Positions 1,874 to 15,406 of a stretch of DNA of 29,192 nucleotides are shown piece by piece. The notes below the pieces were generated by a model. That model ran no database searches. It was not told the DNA's origin and worked only from the letters and a program-made list of their open reading frames with translations. The DNA is from a virus. Position 1 is the stretch's first letter. The number at the start of each line of letters is the position of its first letter. A program made the position numbers and the translations under genes. The DNA lies in the IMG/VR virus record IMGVR_UViG_3300046171_000016, positions 1 to 29,192 of that record. One strand, given 5' to 3'.

Positions 1874-3091
1874 ATGCCATTAACAAACCCACAAAAGAAT
1901 GTAATACAAGATAAATCAAGATTTAGAGTTTTAATTACTGGGCGAAGATTTGGCAAAACATTTGTGGCTATCAATGAAATAGCTAAGTTTGCAAGTATTT
2001 CAAATAAAAAAATATGGTATGTTGCACCCAGTTACAGACAAGCTAAAGCTATTTGTTGGGGTGTATTAAAAGAAAAGATGATTTATCATAAATGGGTCAA
2101 GAGTATAAACCATAGTGATTTAACTATTACACTCAAAAATAATACCCAGATAACACTTAGGGGATCAGATAATGAAAGTAGCCTTAGAGGTGTTGGGTTA
2201 CATTTCCTAATTCTTGATGAATTTCAAGACATTAATAAAACTGCTTGGTATGAAGTTCTTAGACCTACATTATCAGACACTAAAGGTCATGCGTTATTTT
2301 GTGGTACACCTAGAGGTTTTGGGAACTGGTCATATGATCTATATAAAATGGGTGAAACTAATAAAGATTGGCAAAGTTTTCAATATACAACCCTAGAGGG
2401 TGAACAGGTTACACAAGACGAAATAGAACAGGCAAAACAAGATTTAGATTTAAGAACATTTCAACAGGAATATGAAGCAACATTTGTAAACTATTCTGGA
2501 ATGATTTATTACAATTTTAGTAGAGATAAAAACATAATTGAAAAATATACTAAGGATAGTCCAGTATTACATATTGGTTTAGATTTTAACGTAGACCCTA
2601 TGAGTGCTGTAGTTTGTATTATAGAAAATGATAGAATTATTGTAGTAGATGAAGTACAAATATATAGCAGTAATACAAATGAAATGTGTGATGAGATTAA
2701 AACCAGATATAAAAATAAACAGATAGTTGTTTATCCAGACCCTTCAGCTAGACAAAGAAAAACTTCTGCGGGTGGATTAACTGATTTATCTATATTGAAA
2801 AATAATGGTTTTGATGTAAGATGTAGAAGTACAGCACCTTTAGTAAGGGATAGGATAAACGCAGTAAATTCAAAGCTAAAAAACGTAAATGGTAAAAACA
2901 GCTTATTTATTGTGAAATTCTGTAAAAATGCGATCAAAAGCATAGAAAGACAGATTTATAAGGAAGGTACACATATTCCAGAAAAAGATAGCGGTTACGA
3001 TCACATGAATGATGCTCTAGGTTATTTAATAGAATATCTATACCCGCTAAAAAGGAATTTTGCACCAAGCCAACCTAAAAGGTGGAGTTGA
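1874..3091 (+). CDS. terL: Terminase large subunit (ATPase-nuclease)
   Basis: ATP-driven motor that packages DNA into the prohead and cuts it. The 405 residues are a usual length for short Terminase_6-type subunits. Walker A-like GRRFGKT lies at 23-29 and Walker B FLILDE at 111-116, followed by a coupling motif around GTPRG (about 143). The C-terminal RNase H-like nuclease is marked by HIGLDFNVDP near residue 233 and YDHMNDALGYLIEY near the end, which supply the acidic metal ligands. The stop overlaps the portal start (TGATG). All key motifs look intact. Confidence 0.95.
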   Translation: MPLTNPQKNVIQDKSRFRVLITGRRFGKTFVAINEIAKFASISNKKIWYVAPSYRQAKAICWGVLKEKMIYHKWVKSINHSDLTITLKNNTQITLRGSDNESSLRGVGLHFLILDEFQDINKTAWYEVLRPTLSDTKGHALFCGTPRGFGNWSYDLYKMGETNKDWQSFQYTTLEGEQVTQDEIEQAKQDLDLRTFQQEYEATFVNYSGMIYYNFSRDKNIIEKYTKDSPVLHIGLDFNVDPMSAVVCIIENDRIIVVDEVQIYSSNTNEMCDEIKTRYKNKQIVVYPDPSARQRKTSAGGLTDLSILKNNGFDVRCRSTAPLVRDRINAVNSKLKNVNGKNSLFIVKFCKNAIKSIERQIYKEGTHIPEKDSGYDHMNDALGYLIEYLYPLKRNFAPSQPKRWS

Positions 3092-3582
3092 TGAACAGGG
3101 AAACACTAACTAGCAAACATGAATTGTGGGATAAAAATATATCTAACTGGGAGTTTTATATCCGAAGTTATTTAGGGGGTAATGATTATAAAAATGGTTA
3201 TTATCTTCACAGATATGTTTTAGAATCACCAGAAGATTATGATGCTAGAATTAGACATACCCCAGTTGATAACCATTGTAAAAACGTAGTTCAAATATAT
3301 ACAAGTTTCTTATGGAGAGTACCACCAACCAGAAATTATGGTTCTTTAGACGGAGATCAACAACTTACTTCATTCTTAAATGATGCTGATTTAGATGGTA
3401 GGTCATTTAATACTATAATGCGTGAGGTTCAAATGAACGCTAGTATTTATGGTAATTGTTGGGTGATAGTTGATAAGCCACAATCAAACGCTAATACAAG
3501 AGCAGAAGAACTAGCACAAGGACATAAGACCTTATGTTTCAATATATACACCAGAAAATGTTGTAAACTGGAATTATGCTAG
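3091..3582 (+). CDS. Portal protein, N-terminal part (frame broken)
   Basis: The first part of the portal, the dodecameric DNA gate at the capsid vertex. It starts at ATG 3091, overlapping the terL stop, with GGTGGAG as ribosome site. Residues such as DARIRHTPVDNHCKNVVQIY and MNASIYGNCWVIVDKP fit a portal of the DUF4055-like type. The frame holds until about AEELAQG, after which this frame gives a Cys/Lys-rich tail unlike a portal and stops at 3582. In the +1 frame the expected sequence resumes at once (RPYVSIYTPENVVNWNYARS, from 3527). One extra base near 3520-3526 restores a continuous ~470-residue portal. It may be an assembly or sequencing error, or a real indel. Confidence 0.85.
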   Translation: MNRETLTSKHELWDKNISNWEFYIRSYLGGNDYKNGYYLHRYVLESPEDYDARIRHTPVDNHCKNVVQIYTSFLWRVPPTRNYGSLDGDQQLTSFLNDADLDGRSFNTIMREVQMNASIYGNCWVIVDKPQSNANTRAEELAQGHKTLCFNIYTRKCCKLELC

Positions 3583-3610
3583 GTCTGCAAGTGGTAGGTT
3601 CTATTTAGAT

Positions 3611-4507
3611 ATGTTAATGGTTGTAGAAGATATAAACACCGAAAGAGCAATAATAAAAGTATTCACAGAAGAAACTATAAGCACATATGAAGTTGAAGAT
3701 TATCAAGAAGAATACAAAGAAGGTGATGCAAGACTAATTGAAGAAATACCTAACCCAATAGGCAAGATACCCGCAGTAAATGTTTATAATCTTAGAGGTG
3801 CAAAGCGACCAATAGGTATAAGTGATTTAGCAGACGTAGCTTATTTACAGCAATCTATCTATAATGATTATTCTGAAAAAGAACAGTTAATCAGATTAGC
3901 AAACCACCCAAGTTTAGTTAAAACCCCTAATGTTGAAGCTAGTGCGGGTGCGGGTGCAATAATAGAAATACCAGAAGATTTAGATAGTGCATTAAAGCCT
4001 TATATAATCCAACCTAGCGGTCAAAACCTAGATGGGATAATGAAATGTATTCAAAACAAAGTTGATGCTATTGATAGAATAACCCACATGGGTTCAGTTA
4101 GGGCAACAGGTACACAGATAGCTAGTGGAATTGCATTACAAACTGAATTTCAATTATTAAATGCTAGATTATCAGAAAAAGCAGATTATTTAGAAAATGC
4201 CGAAGAACAAATATGGGGATTATTTGCTAGATGGCAAGATAAACAGTTTGATGGTTCTATAAACTACCCAGATACATTTGATATTAGGGATTGGGCAAAC
4301 GATCTACAATATTTACAAATGGCTAAAGCTAGTGGCATAAAATCAGAAACATTTAACAAGGAAATAGATAAACAAATAGCAGAAGCAGTAATAGACGATA
4401 ATGAAACTATGAAAACTATTAATGATGAAATAGATGCTATCAGAACTGTTAGGGGTCAATTTCAAACAACAGAAGTGGAAGGTCAAACAGTTGGCGAAGA
4501 AACGTAA
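3611..4507 (+). CDS. Portal protein, C-terminal part (frame broken)
   Basis: Continuation of the portal gene in the +1 frame. ATG 3611 is merely the first methionine; the homologous sequence starts upstream at about 3524-3527 with no start codon or ribosome site, so this is a piece and not a separate gene. It holds GKIPAVNVYNLRGAK, GISDLADVAYLQQSIYNDYS and a long C-terminal helical part (ERTVRGQF-like acidic end), as in portal proteins. An in-frame TAG at 3512 limits the frame-shift point to 3515-3582. The 3' end overlaps the next small gene. Confidence 0.85.
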   Translation: MLMVVEDINTERAIIKVFTEETISTYEVEDYQEEYKEGDARLIEEIPNPIGKIPAVNVYNLRGAKRPIGISDLADVAYLQQSIYNDYSEKEQLIRLANHPSLVKTPNVEASAGAGAIIEIPEDLDSALKPYIIQPSGQNLDGIMKCIQNKVDAIDRITHMGSVRATGTQIASGIALQTEFQLLNARLSEKADYLENAEEQIWGLFARWQDKQFDGSINYPDTFDIRDWANDLQYLQMAKASGIKSETFNKEIDKQIAEAVIDDNETMKTINDEIDAIRTVRGQFQTTEVEGQTVGEET

Positions 4508-10817: not shown

Positions 10818-11204
10818 ATGGCTACACATCATGGTAAAGAAGGAGTTGTAACTATCGGTGGAACTACACTAGGTAATGCAACAGGTTTCACAGTTGATAC
10901 TACACATGACGTTGTTGAAGATACCGCTTTAGGTAGTTCAATGAAATCATTTTTAGTTGGTAGGGGTACATATACAGCTAGTATTGATATGAACTTTGAC
11001 GAAACCGATTCTGGGCAAACTGCATTGGTACAGGGTGCAGAATTAACTTTTGCATTTTTACCAGAGGGTAATGCTTCTGGAGATAGAAAGTTTTCTGGAA
11101 ATGGTATTGTTACAGGAATGTCAGTTAGTGTTCCTTTAGATGGTGTTATAACTAGAACTGTATCAGTACAGGGCAATGGTGGTTTAACTATCGGTACTGT
11201 GTAA
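10818..11204 (+). CDS. Major tail tube protein (128 aa)
   Basis: Forms the hexameric rings of the tail tube. It is a beta-rich, Gly/Thr/Ser-rich protein (GKEGVVTIGGTTLGNATGFT, then GRGTYTASIDMNFDETDSGQ and a final beta hairpin VITRTVSVQGNGGLTIGTV), with the size and order of small siphovirus tail tube proteins: after the terminator and directly before the chaperone pair. A strong AGAAGGAG ribosome site precedes the ATG, as expected for an abundant structural protein. Confidence 0.85.
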   Translation: MATHHGKEGVVTIGGTTLGNATGFTVDTTHDVVEDTALGSSMKSFLVGRGTYTASIDMNFDETDSGQTALVQGAELTFAFLPEGNASGDRKFSGNGIVTGMSVSVPLDGVITRTVSVQGNGGLTIGTV

Positions 11205-11558
11205 ATGGCAGACCAAAAAATCGATTATTTTGATGGTATTAGAAACCATTTCAGTACCCTTGACACTCAAATAATTGAAGTACCAGAATGGGATTTAGTA
11301 GGCGATAAAGCTATATTTTGTAAACCTTTTAATATGCTTGAAAAACAAAAGATTTTCAAAGGTGCTAGTGGCACAGATTTAATTGTTTTGATTGATGTTA
11401 TTATTGAAAAGGCATTAACAAAAGATGGTGAAAAAATGTTTAATGGAACTCATGTTTTAGCTTTCAAAACTAAAGCCGATACTAATGTTATTGCAGATGT
11501 TGCCACAAAGATAATGGGAACAGGAAACACAGATATAGAAGATAATAAAAAAAACTAA
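11205..11558 (+). CDS. Tail assembly chaperone G (117 aa)
   Basis: The short form of the lambda G/GT-type chaperone that coats the tape measure before tube assembly. It abuts the tail tube gene. The product (DYFDGIRNHFSTLDTQIIEV ... FNMLEKQKIFKGASGTDLIV ... DVATKIMGTGNTDIEDNKKN) has the mixed alpha/beta pattern of this family. It ends at TAA 11556, immediately after the slippery heptamer A AAA AAC, where some ribosomes slip -1 into the T domain. Confidence 0.85.
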   Translation: MADQKIDYFDGIRNHFSTLDTQIIEVPEWDLVGDKAIFCKPFNMLEKQKIFKGASGTDLIVLIDVIIEKALTKDGEKMFNGTHVLAFKTKADTNVIADVATKIMGTGNTDIEDNKKN

Positions 11559-11728
11559 GAAATAATGTAGAATTACATAATATATTTTCTTTAGCCGAAA
11601 AGCTACATAAGACAGTTTCCGAAATCTTGCAAATGACAGTAGATGAGTTTAATATGTGGTTAGCATACTTTCAGCTTCAAAGTGATGAAATTGAAAGGCA
11701 AAAAAGAATAGCAAAGGCTCAAAGATAG
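11205..11728 (+). CDS. Tail assembly chaperone GT, -1 frameshift product (174 aa)
   Basis: Slipping -1 on A AAA AAC (11549-11555) continues at CTA 11555 and gives LRNNVELHNIFSLAEKLHK, VSEILQMTVDEFNMWLAYFQ and a basic end, stopping at TAG 11726-11728. The added 57 residues (ILQMTVDEFNMWLAY) are a typical gpT domain, and lie exactly between G and the tape measure, which starts with the last base of this stop (TAGTG). The T frame has no start codon of its own in a good context. The dual-coding layout is direct from sequence; use of the site is inferred from lambda-like phages. Confidence 0.85.
11549..11555 (+). promoter_or_regulatory. -1 ribosomal frameshift site (A AAA AAC)
   Basis: The heptamer A-AAA-AAC is in the zero frame of the G gene (codons AAA AAA AAC followed by TAA), at the end of a run of eight A. 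It meets the X-XXY-YYZ rule, and the -1 frame downstream is open for 57 codons with T-domain character. I did not find a strong downstream stem; many phage G-T sites work without one. Confidence 0.85.
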
Positions 11729-13797
11729 TGGCTACAAAAAACGTAAACATAGATATAATAGCCAAAGATAAGACCAGACAGGCTATGCAATCAGCTACAA
11801 AAGGGGTGAACGACCTTAAAAGCAATGTTCAAAAATCAGTTTCAGCACAACAAAATTCATTTAATGCTTTAGGCAATACAATCAAAACTGTTATAGGCGG
11901 GGTTGTTGTTTTCCAAGCATTAAGATTTAGTAAACAAATGATAATGATGGCTAGTTCAGTTGAAGAAATGCAAGCCAAGTCATCAGTTGTTTTTGGTCGT
12001 TTTGTTTCTAGTGTAAGAAAAGAACTTGAAATTTTTGGAGATAATGTCGGAAGAAGCACAGAAGAACTTGAAAGAATGGCATCTTCTATACAGGATACTT
12101 TTGTACCTATGGGTTTTGCTAGAGGTGAAGCATCTAAATTATCAGTTCAATTAACAAAATTAGCAGTTGATGTAGCATCATTCAATAATGCAAGTGATGT
12201 TGATACTATGATGGCATTTCAAAGTGCATTAGTTGGCAATCACGAAACAGTTAGAAGATTTGGTGTTGTTATTACCGAAGCAACATTAAAACAAGAATTA
12301 CTAAGAATGGGTATAAACAAAGCATCAAACGAAGTTACAAACGCAGAAAAGGTTCAAGCCAGATTAAATCTAATTATTGCGGGTACGTCAGATGCTCAAG
12401 GTGATGCAGAAAGAACTTCTGATAGCTTTGCTAATTCTATGAAAGCATTAAATGCCGAGTTTCAAGAATTTATGGTTGAAGCAGTTACACCTTTATTACC
12501 CGCATTGTCAAAAATAATTAAATCGTTAAAGGATTCAATAACAGAAACTAAAGAATTTTTAAGAACAATAGGTCTTTTAAGCAAACTTAATGAAATAGTA
12601 CCAATAGTAGACCATTTAGCAGAAAATCAAGATAAACTTGCAGATGCAGAAGCTAGGTTAGCAGAACAAACTAAATTATTAGGTTCAATTCAAAACGATA
12701 CATTTGTTGCTAAGGCAAAAGATTTTATTTCAGCTAATAGTGAGTTTGGCTTTTCAATTCTTAAAGGGAAAAAGGCAGTAGAAGATAGAATTGAGTCAAT
12801 TAAAAATGAAATAGAACAAATTAAATTATCAAGAGAAATGATTTTACTTGAATCAGAAGCAAGAGATTTAAATGCAAAATTTATCGATAAACAAACGGAA
12901 GCACAAAAAAAATTAACCAAAGCAATCGAAACACCTATGTTAAGACCAGATATTATAGGTTTTCAAAAGCCAACAGGTCCAGAAATAGGACAAGGAAATC
13001 AACTTGATTCTAGTATGACAGGGTCAGAATTAATCAATCCTATTGACCCTCTTAGACAACAATTAAATGATGAATTTGAATTACAAAAAGAAATGAATGA
13101 AAAAAATATTCAAAGAATATTAGACAATGACGAATTAGAAGCTGAATTAAGAAGAGTTAAAGCAGATGAAACACTAAGACTTGCACACGAAACAGCACAA
13201 AAAGAAATGGAAATCAGAAAAAAACTATTTGATGATAATTTCAAATTAATCAAATCTGGTAAAGCAAGTGAAATAAATTTAGAAAAAATGTCTGGAAAAG
13301 AATTAAATGAATTAGCGGGTGATACTGCAAGGCAAGCCTTGTCTGAGATGGCAAAACATAATAAAACAGCATTTGAGTTAAATAAAGCCTTTGCTGTTAA
13401 AGATGCAGTTGTAAGCACCGCACAGGGAGTAAGTAAAGCATTGGGAATGGGTCCGCTTGGAATACCTTTGGCTATTGCTATCGGTGCGTTGGGATTTGCT
13501 CAAGTTGCAACAATTATGTCGACTAAATATCAAGGTAGACGTTTGGGCGGTAGAATGAATCAAGGTGAGCCATATATGGTTGGTGAAGCGGGTCCAGAAT
13601 TAGTTGTACCAGATAGAGCATCAAATGTTGTACCAAATAATAAATTAGGTGGTATGAGTCAACCAGTTACAGTAAACTTTAATATAAGCACAGTTGATGC
13701 TAGAGGGTTTAATGAATTATTAGTTAACTCAAGGGGTACTATAGTTAATCTTATTAATAGTGCTGTAAATGAAAAGGGTAAAATGGCGATAGTATGA
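11728..13797 (+). CDS. Tail tape measure protein (689 aa)
   Basis: Sets tail length and is released with DNA at infection. It starts with GTG 11728 (M-ATKNVNIDIIAKDKT), overlapping the GT stop. Features: a helical start typical of tape measures (DKTRQAMQSATKGVNDLKSN), a hydrophobic segment near 50-65 (IKTVIGGVVVFQALRF), SADAAR-like SVEEMQAKSSVVFGRF, long charged coiled coils (about 290-550), a second hydrophobic stretch near 565-600 (GPLGIPLAIAIGALGFAQVA), and the common tape-measure end GRMNQGEPYMVGEAGPELVV. At about 0.15 nm per residue it predicts a tail near 100 nm. Confidence 0.93.
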   Translation: MATKNVNIDIIAKDKTRQAMQSATKGVNDLKSNVQKSVSAQQNSFNALGNTIKTVIGGVVVFQALRFSKQMIMMASSVEEMQAKSSVVFGRFVSSVRKELEIFGDNVGRSTEELERMASSIQDTFVPMGFARGEASKLSVQLTKLAVDVASFNNASDVDTMMAFQSALVGNHETVRRFGVVITEATLKQELLRMGINKASNEVTNAEKVQARLNLIIAGTSDAQGDAERTSDSFANSMKALNAEFQEFMVEAVTPLLPALSKIIKSLKDSITETKEFLRTIGLLSKLNEIVPIVDHLAENQDKLADAEARLAEQTKLLGSIQNDTFVAKAKDFISANSEFGFSILKGKKAVEDRIESIKNEIEQIKLSREMILLESEARDLNAKFIDKQTEAQKKLTKAIETPMLRPDIIGFQKPTGPEIGQGNQLDSSMTGSELINPIDPLRQQLNDEFELQKEMNEKNIQRILDNDELEAELRRVKADETLRLAHETAQKEMEIRKKLFDDNFKLIKSGKASEINLEKMSGKELNELAGDTARQALSEMAKHNKTAFELNKAFAVKDAVVSTAQGVSKALGMGPLGIPLAIAIGALGFAQVATIMSTKYQGRRLGGRMNQGEPYMVGEAGPELVVPDRASNVVPNNKLGGMSQPVTVNFNISTVDARGFNELLVNSRGTIVNLINSAVNEKGKMAIV

Positions 13798-14402: not shown

Positions 14403-14969
14403 ATGGCTAGGGGTTTAACAAGTGCAGTAAAAACAGAACTAGCCACAGGAATAATAGAACCAGTTATTTTAGTAGAAATTGGTTTTTCAACCACAATATA
14501 TTTAACTAATGCAAGTTTTGATTTAACATCTAGTGTTTCTGGAACATCAAGAACATACTTATCTAATGGGCATTTAAGGGGTATTACAGGGGTGCAAGAA
14601 ACAAACGCACCAACTAAGAATAGTTTGTCTGTTAGCTTATCTGGGGTAGATCAAACGTACATAGCACTAGCTTTAACCGAGAATATAATAAATGATGATG
14701 TTTTTATTTATCAAGGTTATTTAAATTCTAGTTTGGCATTAATTTCAGACCCATTTTTATTGTTTTATGGGAATGTTGACGAGTTCAAAATATCCGATAA
14801 TACATCAACAGCAACATTAGTTTTACTTGTTAGTTCACATTGGGGAAATTTTAGCAAAACAAGTGGAAGGACAACTACACTTAATTCACAACAAAGGTTT
14901 TTTAGTGATGATGTTGGAATGGTATTTAGTGCCTTGACTGTTAGAGATATTAAGTGGGGTAGGGAATGA
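14403..14969 (+). CDS. Minor tail / tail-tip protein (DUF2163-like position, 188 aa)
   Basis: A beta-rich protein with VKTELATGIIEPVILVEIGF, TIYLTNASFDLTSSVSG, SGVDQTYIALALTENIINDD and a final WGNFSKTSGRTTTLNSQQRF. The Y-L-T-N, L-S-G-V-D and I-N-D-x-V blocks resemble hub-adapter proteins that occupy the DUF2163 place in GTA- and HK97-like tail tips. It follows the putative Dit gene without a gap and overlaps the GNAT-like gene by 4 bases. Confidence 0.65.
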   Translation: MARGLTSAVKTELATGIIEPVILVEIGFSTTIYLTNASFDLTSSVSGTSRTYLSNGHLRGITGVQETNAPTKNSLSVSLSGVDQTYIALALTENIINDDVFIYQGYLNSSLALISDPFLLFYGNVDEFKISDNTSTATLVLLVSSHWGNFSKTSGRTTTLNSQQRFFSDDVGMVFSALTVRDIKWGRE

Positions 14970-15406
14970 CAAGCACACATTTATATTATGCAGAAAAAAC
15001 AGATATTGAAATTATTTATAATTTATTATTAGAATATAAAAACAAAGATTGTGAAGCTGATTATCCAGATGTTGATAGAAAAAAAGGTATGTATTTTATA
15101 AATACTATTCTGGATAAGGGCAAAGTAGTTTTGATGAAAGATTTAGATAATGATGAATTAATTGGTTGTTGTATGTTTAATAAATCTGAATATTTTTTTA
15201 GTAAAGATCAAATAATGCAAATACAAATTATTTATATTAAAAAAGATTTTAGAAATTTTAAATTATTTAAATTATTTATTGATAGTGTAAAAAAAGTTTC
15301 AGAAGATTTACCAATAGTTTTATCAATTACATCTGGTTTACATATAGACCCAGTTTTTGAAAAATTAGGATTTAAAAATATGGGTTCTAATTGGAGGTTT
15401 GCATAA
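14966..15406 (+). CDS. GNAT-like acetyltransferase-fold protein in the tail-tip cluster (146 aa)
   Basis: The pattern fits a GNAT fold: N-terminal YAEKTDIEIIYNLLLEYKN, a strand pair KVVLMKDLDNDELIGCCMF, then MQIQIIYIKKDFRNFKLFKL and a terminal HIDPVFEKLGFKNMGSNW, the usual end of such proteins. The acetyl-CoA loop Q/R-x-x-G-x-G/A is not intact (R-N-F-K-L-F), so it may be inactive or use another ligand. It takes the place usually held by an NlpC/P60 peptidase between the tip adapter and the hub, with 4-base (upstream) overlap and no gap downstream. Its base composition is visibly more AT-rich than its neighbours. A structural or modifying role cannot be told apart here. Confidence 0.7.
   Translation: MTSTHLYYAEKTDIEIIYNLLLEYKNKDCEADYPDVDRKKGMYFINTILDKGKVVLMKDLDNDELIGCCMFNKSEYFFSKDQIMQIQIIYIKKDFRNFKLFKLFIDSVKKVSEDLPIVLSITSGLHIDPVFEKLGFKNMGSNWRFA

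Follow-up and report, generated by a model that had tools for sequence, protein, structure and literature searches.

A putative lambda-type -1 frameshift in the tail assembly chaperone genes of a virus contig related to Pelagibacter siphophages

Between a tail assembly chaperone gene and the tape measure gene of an environmental virus lies an open reading frame that has no start codon of its own. How could such a frame be translated, and does it belong to the gene that precedes it? In a lambda-type chaperone pair, a GT fusion is made at a low fixed ratio to the G protein; G binds the tape measure and T binds the tube protein, and neither is found in the virion. The evidence considered here makes it very probable that the present locus encodes a pair of this type, with the fusion produced by -1 frameshifting on the heptamer A AAA AAC. 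The shift is what we infer from sequence comparison.

The window, by which is meant the entire stretch of DNA analysed, is a 29,192-base IMG/VR virus record with a GC content of 32%. Its terminase is about 55–58% identical to those of Pelagibacter phages HTVC026P, 111P, 112P and 202P and of Phage DSL-LC06, and parts of its tail region align at the DNA level (68–69%) with the four HTVC phages. These similarities relate the window, a virus contig, to the Pelagibacter siphophages, and because both the terminase and the tail-region DNA resemble those of Pelagibacter phages, its host is presumably SAR11.

Two other features of the window were observed in passing. The portal gene is split (3082–4507), the HTVC111P portal matching frame 1 as far as 3519 and frame 2 from 3518; the portal frame is intact, at 469–488 aa, in nine close relatives. 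The split is probably a small indel in the window contig, introduced by a sequencing or assembly error. A small gene of the tail region (14966–15406) is acetyltransferase-like by position and look. At this position the HTVC relatives have an annotated lysine-acyltransferase family protein, and DSL-LC06 has a glucosamine 6-phosphate N-acetyltransferase.

Arrangement of the G and T frames

The genes at the site follow the order tail terminator, major tail protein, G, T, tape measure and distal tail protein, which puts the G/T pair in the lambda-type position, with the major tail protein on one side and the tape measure on the other (Table 1). In zero-frame codons the 3′ end of G reads AAT (from 11544) AAA AAA AAC TAA. 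The heptamer is phased A-AAA-AAC, with AAA and AAC as codons of the zero frame, and thus fits X XXY YYZ. Since a -1 frame TAA abuts the heptamer on its 5′ side, the heptamer is the sole point of entry to the T frame and by itself constitutes the whole overlap of the two frames upstream of the G stop. From its first base the -1 frame reads AAA AAA and then 57 further codons, and the product of a shift would continue past the heptamer as KK LRNNVELHNIFSLAEKLHKTVSEILQMTVDEFNMWLAYFQLQSDEIERQKRIAKAQR. The T stop and the tape measure start form the string TAGTG and have one base, the G, in common. The first ATG, GTG or TTG of the T frame is a TTG at 11627, 26 codons past the start of the heptamer; an ATG at 11633 is also in frame. 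A preliminary description of this DNA had placed A AAA AAC in the zero frame just 5′ of the G stop, and had reported a -1 frame open for 57 codons up to the first base of the tape measure gene; both statements are exact.

Table 1. Positions in the window of the features at the putative shift site and of the flanking tail genes
Feature	Positions	Strand	Basis
Major tail (tube) protein, directly 5′ of G	10818–11204	+	phrog_10528, E=7e-11
G, tail assembly chaperone, zero-frame product, 117 aa	11205–11558	+	ATG 11205; phrog_16513; RcCronus profile match
-1 frame stop TAA, directly 5′ of heptamer, closes T frame	11546–11548	+	sequence
Slippery heptamer A AAA AAC, zero-frame phase, within 8-A run 11547–11554	11549–11555	+	conservation
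Zero-frame TAA of G, adjoining heptamer	11556–11558	+	sequence
T domain, -1 frame, KK + 57 codons, TAG 11726–11728, without own start	11549–11728	+	dN/dS; phrog_337/25875; RcCronus T match
Tape measure protein, GTG start	11728–13797	+	phrog_1535 tail length tape measure, E=6e-17

With such an arrangement, most ribosomes would terminate at the TAA at 11556 and release G. A few would slip back by one base, both tRNAs leaving A AAA AAC and re-pairing on AAA AAA, and these would read 57 more codons to yield the GT fusion. By analogy with lambda, many copies of G and few of GT may coat the tape measure protein, with the T domain recruiting the tube protein. The slip itself, its rate and its role in assembly are, in this scheme, our reading of the locus. 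The stop of T and the start of the tape measure gene overlap in most members of the window, HTVC026P and HTVC111P clades (defined below), though not in the DSL clade. This overlap suggests translational coupling, by which shifted ribosomes could also feed the tape measure gene.

Conservation of the slip site and of the T protein

The observations that bear on this reading are the arrangement described above, the conservation of the site, protein selection in the T frame and the family to which both parts belong. AAAAAAC occurs 30 times in the window, where 23.6 copies are expected, and the listed genes contain 107 zero-frame X XXY YYZ sites; the heptamer is so common that the motif alone proves nothing. 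An open frame of 59 codons has a probability of 0.0065 under a first-order Markov model of the window. With a heptamer that is not rare and an open frame of this probability, the case rests on comparison.

The relatives compared are 280 IMG/VR loci that were fetched by G alone, with peptide patterns that exclude the heptamer residues, and sorted into clades according to which of four reference G proteins they matched best. Clade counts include the reference phages and the window but exclude the second copy of the window (L001). Every one of the 280 loci carries A AAA AAC or A AAA AAG. The former is found throughout the window clade (81/81), the HTVC026P clade (82/82) and the DSL-LC06 clade (41/41), the latter throughout the HTVC111P clade (82/82). 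A AAA AAC is present as well in Sinorhizobium phage phi3LM21, in Roseobacter phages CRP-406, CRP-811 and CRP-823 and in a Pseudovibrio contig. A search of a genome collection yielded one distant Pseudovibrio contig alone, with no Pelagibacter matches. The sole relative that keeps both parts with another slippery heptamer is Rhodobacter phage RcCronus, which has G GGA AAC. In a separate search based on T, every match begins at the shift site. In this respect the site is of the lambda type, since an X XXY YYZ heptamer, phased to the zero frame and conserved, lies inside the G/T overlap. The preliminary description had proposed conservation of the heptamer as a check and its loss from relatives with both parts as grounds for rejection. 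Apart from RcCronus, whose slippery site is equivalent, the relatives with both parts, found without use of the heptamer, keep either A AAA AAC or A AAA AAG.

The finer pattern of substitution is more informative than the counts. AAAAAAC is kept in 80/80 close relatives of the window. The TAA that follows the heptamer has been lost in 22 close relatives, where G is longer by four codons (12 nt) and the heptamer is retained; the motif is thus not a by-product of the stop. On trees of 58–66 distinct sequences per clade, the seven heptamer columns show zero changes in the window, HTVC026P and HTVC111P clades, and conserved Asn codons elsewhere in G each change their third base 1 to 10 times. In the AAC clades all 165 distinct segments have AAC as the Asn codon of the heptamer, and AAT never occurs. 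Yet AAT is 1.4–5 times commoner than AAC in these genes, and in 145 of the 165 segments, where CTA or CTG follows as the next -1 codon, replacing AAC by AAT would leave the encoded residues of both frames unaltered. In the DSL clade, the codon 5′ of the heptamer specifies E, A, S, I, G or V but has A as its third base in 36/36 sequences, a constancy with a log10 P of -9 if the sequences are independent. Such conservation is to be expected if selection acts on A AAA AAC itself.

The T frame has evolved as a protein. In the window clade its dN/dS is 0.17, compared with 1.4–1.6 in the other two frames, and it is 0.14 across the first 22 T codons, which lie upstream of nearly every possible start. 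Over the stretch that precedes the first possible start, dN/dS is 0.14–0.29. The first ATG, GTG or TTG occurs 26 codons in for 57/63 sequences of the window clade, and usually 28 codons in for the HTVC111P and HTVC026P clades. Because in three clades the first start nearly always comes after the selected stretch, T must be reached from G. As in lambda-type pairs, then, T lies in the -1 frame, overlaps the end of G, lacks its own start and is under protein selection.

Both parts belong to known chaperone families. G, the zero-frame product, matches phrog_16513, tail assembly chaperone (E=4.7e-7), and gives a profile match to the RcCronus chaperone (E=4e-14). For T the matches are phrog_337 and the C-terminal portion of the fused chaperone phrog_25875 (best E for the latter 7e-7 among relatives), with a weaker one to the C-terminal part of phrog_16513 and a profile match to RcCronus T (E=7e-12). 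T is thus homologous to known T parts, those of phrog_25875 and RcCronus, with a weak similarity to lambda T considered below. The T-domain character noted in the -1 frame by the preliminary description is upheld by these matches. Against Pfam PF06223 (Phage_tail_T) the window T scores 13.1 bits (E 0.14), below the curated cut-off of 25.9, which 22 relatives do not reach either (best E 0.0034). The predicted structure of T is a confident three-helix domain (pLDDT 91); the model of G (pLDDT 53) is too poor for use. A structure search with the T model returned no PDB match of value, and the RcRhea tail assembly chaperone was among the weak hits in a viral library (E 0.06).

Helper signals and alternative routes to T

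In the window, RNA 3′ of the heptamer folds no better than shuffled sequences (z 0.44), no SD-like stimulator is found 5′ of the heptamer, and an Rfam search of the entire window gave no hits. No conserved RNA stimulator was found in the window clade, whose members have differing hairpins that are not shared. The window and HTVC026P clades have neither an SD-like site nor a hairpin, and their A runs are long, exactly 8 A in the former (81/81) and exactly 9 A in the latter (82/83; L003, L087-L166). The run is 7 A in the HTVC111P clade (82/82) and only 6 A in 22/41 members of the DSL clade. A stem, AGCGACC/GGTCGCT, stands 5 nt 3′ of A AAA AAG in the HTVC111P clade and is near-invariant (L002:3626-3660, L167-L246), its 5′ arm having one C-to-A change in six sequences. 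It uses AGG and TCG codons in 82/82 sequences; in this clade AGG accounts for about 2.8% of Arg codons and TCG for about 0.5% of Ser codons. Most members also have an SD-like GAGG at -11 to -8. In the DSL clade an SD-like GAG codon is present in 32/36 sequences, and the downstream region is folded. The sister clades thus differ in their helpers: some pair an SD-like site with a dnaX-like hairpin, others have long A runs and neither signal. This difference is new and is the most interesting result of the comparison.

For the window and HTVC026P clades this contrast makes polymerase slippage worth considering. RNA polymerase might slip on the 8-A run and add one A, after which ordinary translation would read T. 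Slippage of bacterial polymerases is efficient on 9 A or T (PMC5009743), the clades with constant runs of 8 and 9 A are those that lack the helpers of the shorter-run clades, and in the HTVC026P clade the ninth A is supplied by a Val codon that reads GTA in 64 of 65 distinct sequences, even though GTT is used almost as often. However, a run of about 9 A or T, as expected for transcriptional slippage, is not a property of all members, the length being 8, 9 or 6–7 A according to clade. The G/T layout is unchanged in the clades with 6 or 7 A, and it is the same in RcCronus with G GGA AAC. Nor does slippage of the polymerase give any reason for AAC over AAT, yet that base is invariant; the constant C of the heptamer speaks for the ribosome. 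Polymerase slippage at this site is accordingly judged quite improbable. It is also conceivable, if unlikely, that the same GT fusion is made by different means, ribosomal in the 6–7 A clades (with the SD-like site and, in the HTVC111P clade, the hairpin) and partly or wholly by polymerase slippage in the 8–9 A clades. The dnaX gene likewise differs between E. coli and Thermus.

T might instead be a separate small protein, begun at a start codon within the -1 frame, or by ribosomes that re-initiate once they have terminated on G. The in-frame TTG and ATG would serve such a start, ribosomes ending at the G stop are nearby, and an AGGA or AGGAGG string follows the stop in most DSL-clade members. 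An internal start would remove the first helix of the predicted T domain, however, and an own start for T was rejected in view of the late first start codons and the protein selection upstream of them; a separate T is very unlikely. The frequency of AAAAAAC in A-rich sequence could also raise the suspicion that heptamer and open frame are accidental, or a relic. Seven columns unchanged in three clades, purifying selection confined to the T frame, and the same layout in phages of several alphaproteobacterial hosts all argue otherwise, and short of a large alignment error these conservation data reject a chance origin, the probability of which is negligible. Programmed -1 frameshifting by the ribosome, as proposed in the preliminary description, is supported by the conservation of the site together with the selection on the T frame, and a GT fusion would be its product.

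Significance and comparison with known systems

The G/GT -1 frameshift is a well-known phage device, and what is new is its place in ocean phages whose records lack it. T is unannotated in HTVC026P, 111P, 112P and 202P, in DSL-LC06 and in Roseobacter phages CRP-406, CRP-811 and CRP-823, which bears out the earlier expectation that annotation would miss it. A literature search found no paper reporting a G/T shift in these HTVC phages; tail frameshifting has been raised in general terms for another SAR11 siphophage, Kolga (PMC8163748). Antisense ORFs have been annotated in the T space of HTVC111P (gp45, L002:3680-3832) and HTVC112P (gp41, L004:2624-2770), and these are probably not genes. In Sinorhizobium phage phi3LM21, p41, a "hypothetical protein", lies inside the chaperone T domain (L288:2875-2985); it is apparently T with an internal codon taken as its start.

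Pelagiphages abound in the sea. The GT protein is missing from the public records of the siphophages considered here, and correct gene models need a join at 11549–11555. The locus also affords a natural comparison, in which one homologous shift site occurs with A runs of varied length, with or without upstream and downstream helpers, among phages that infect a streamlined host. A AAA AAC is a far less slippery heptamer than A AAA AAG in E. coli (PMC5009743). Since a heptamer that is poor in E. coli is nevertheless kept unchanged here, A AAA AAC may work better on SAR11 ribosomes.

The G/GT chaperones of lambda are described as products of -1 frameshifting (Levin et al. 1993; Xu et al. 2004, 2013, 2014; as cited in PMC5009743). 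In lambda as in the window, the tube protein is followed by G, by a T in the -1 frame and by the tape measure, with the shift near the end of G. Both T domains are helical, and a conserved E-x-x-x-W motif is aligned in register, within a profile similarity that is weak (probability 15.5%, E 0.0017); a profile comparison of lambda G with the window G gave no detectable similarity. Unlike lambda, the window has its heptamer, A AAA AAC, directly at the stop, and its T extends for 57 codons as against 144 for the lambda T ORF. The RcCronus chaperone (NC_042049, a joined CDS) is closer, as both of its parts are homologous to those of the window and its slippery site also adjoins the G stop. It differs in the sequence of that site, G GGA AAC, and its frameshift is a record annotation.

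Acinetobacter phage Loki has AAAAAAC beside the stop of a chaperone gene, where a -1 fusion of gp12 and gp13 has been proposed (PMC5313236). The likeness to the window is one of site layout, and Loki differs in having an extra gene between the chaperones and the tape measure. The frameshift cassette of E. coli dnaX, whose layout is in part that given in PMC5009743, belongs to an unrelated gene, and the window itself is without an SD-like site or stem. The likeness is to the site of the HTVC111P clade, where A AAA AAG has an SD-like GAGG upstream, ending at a distance of 7 nt, and a conserved stem downstream, at 5 nt.
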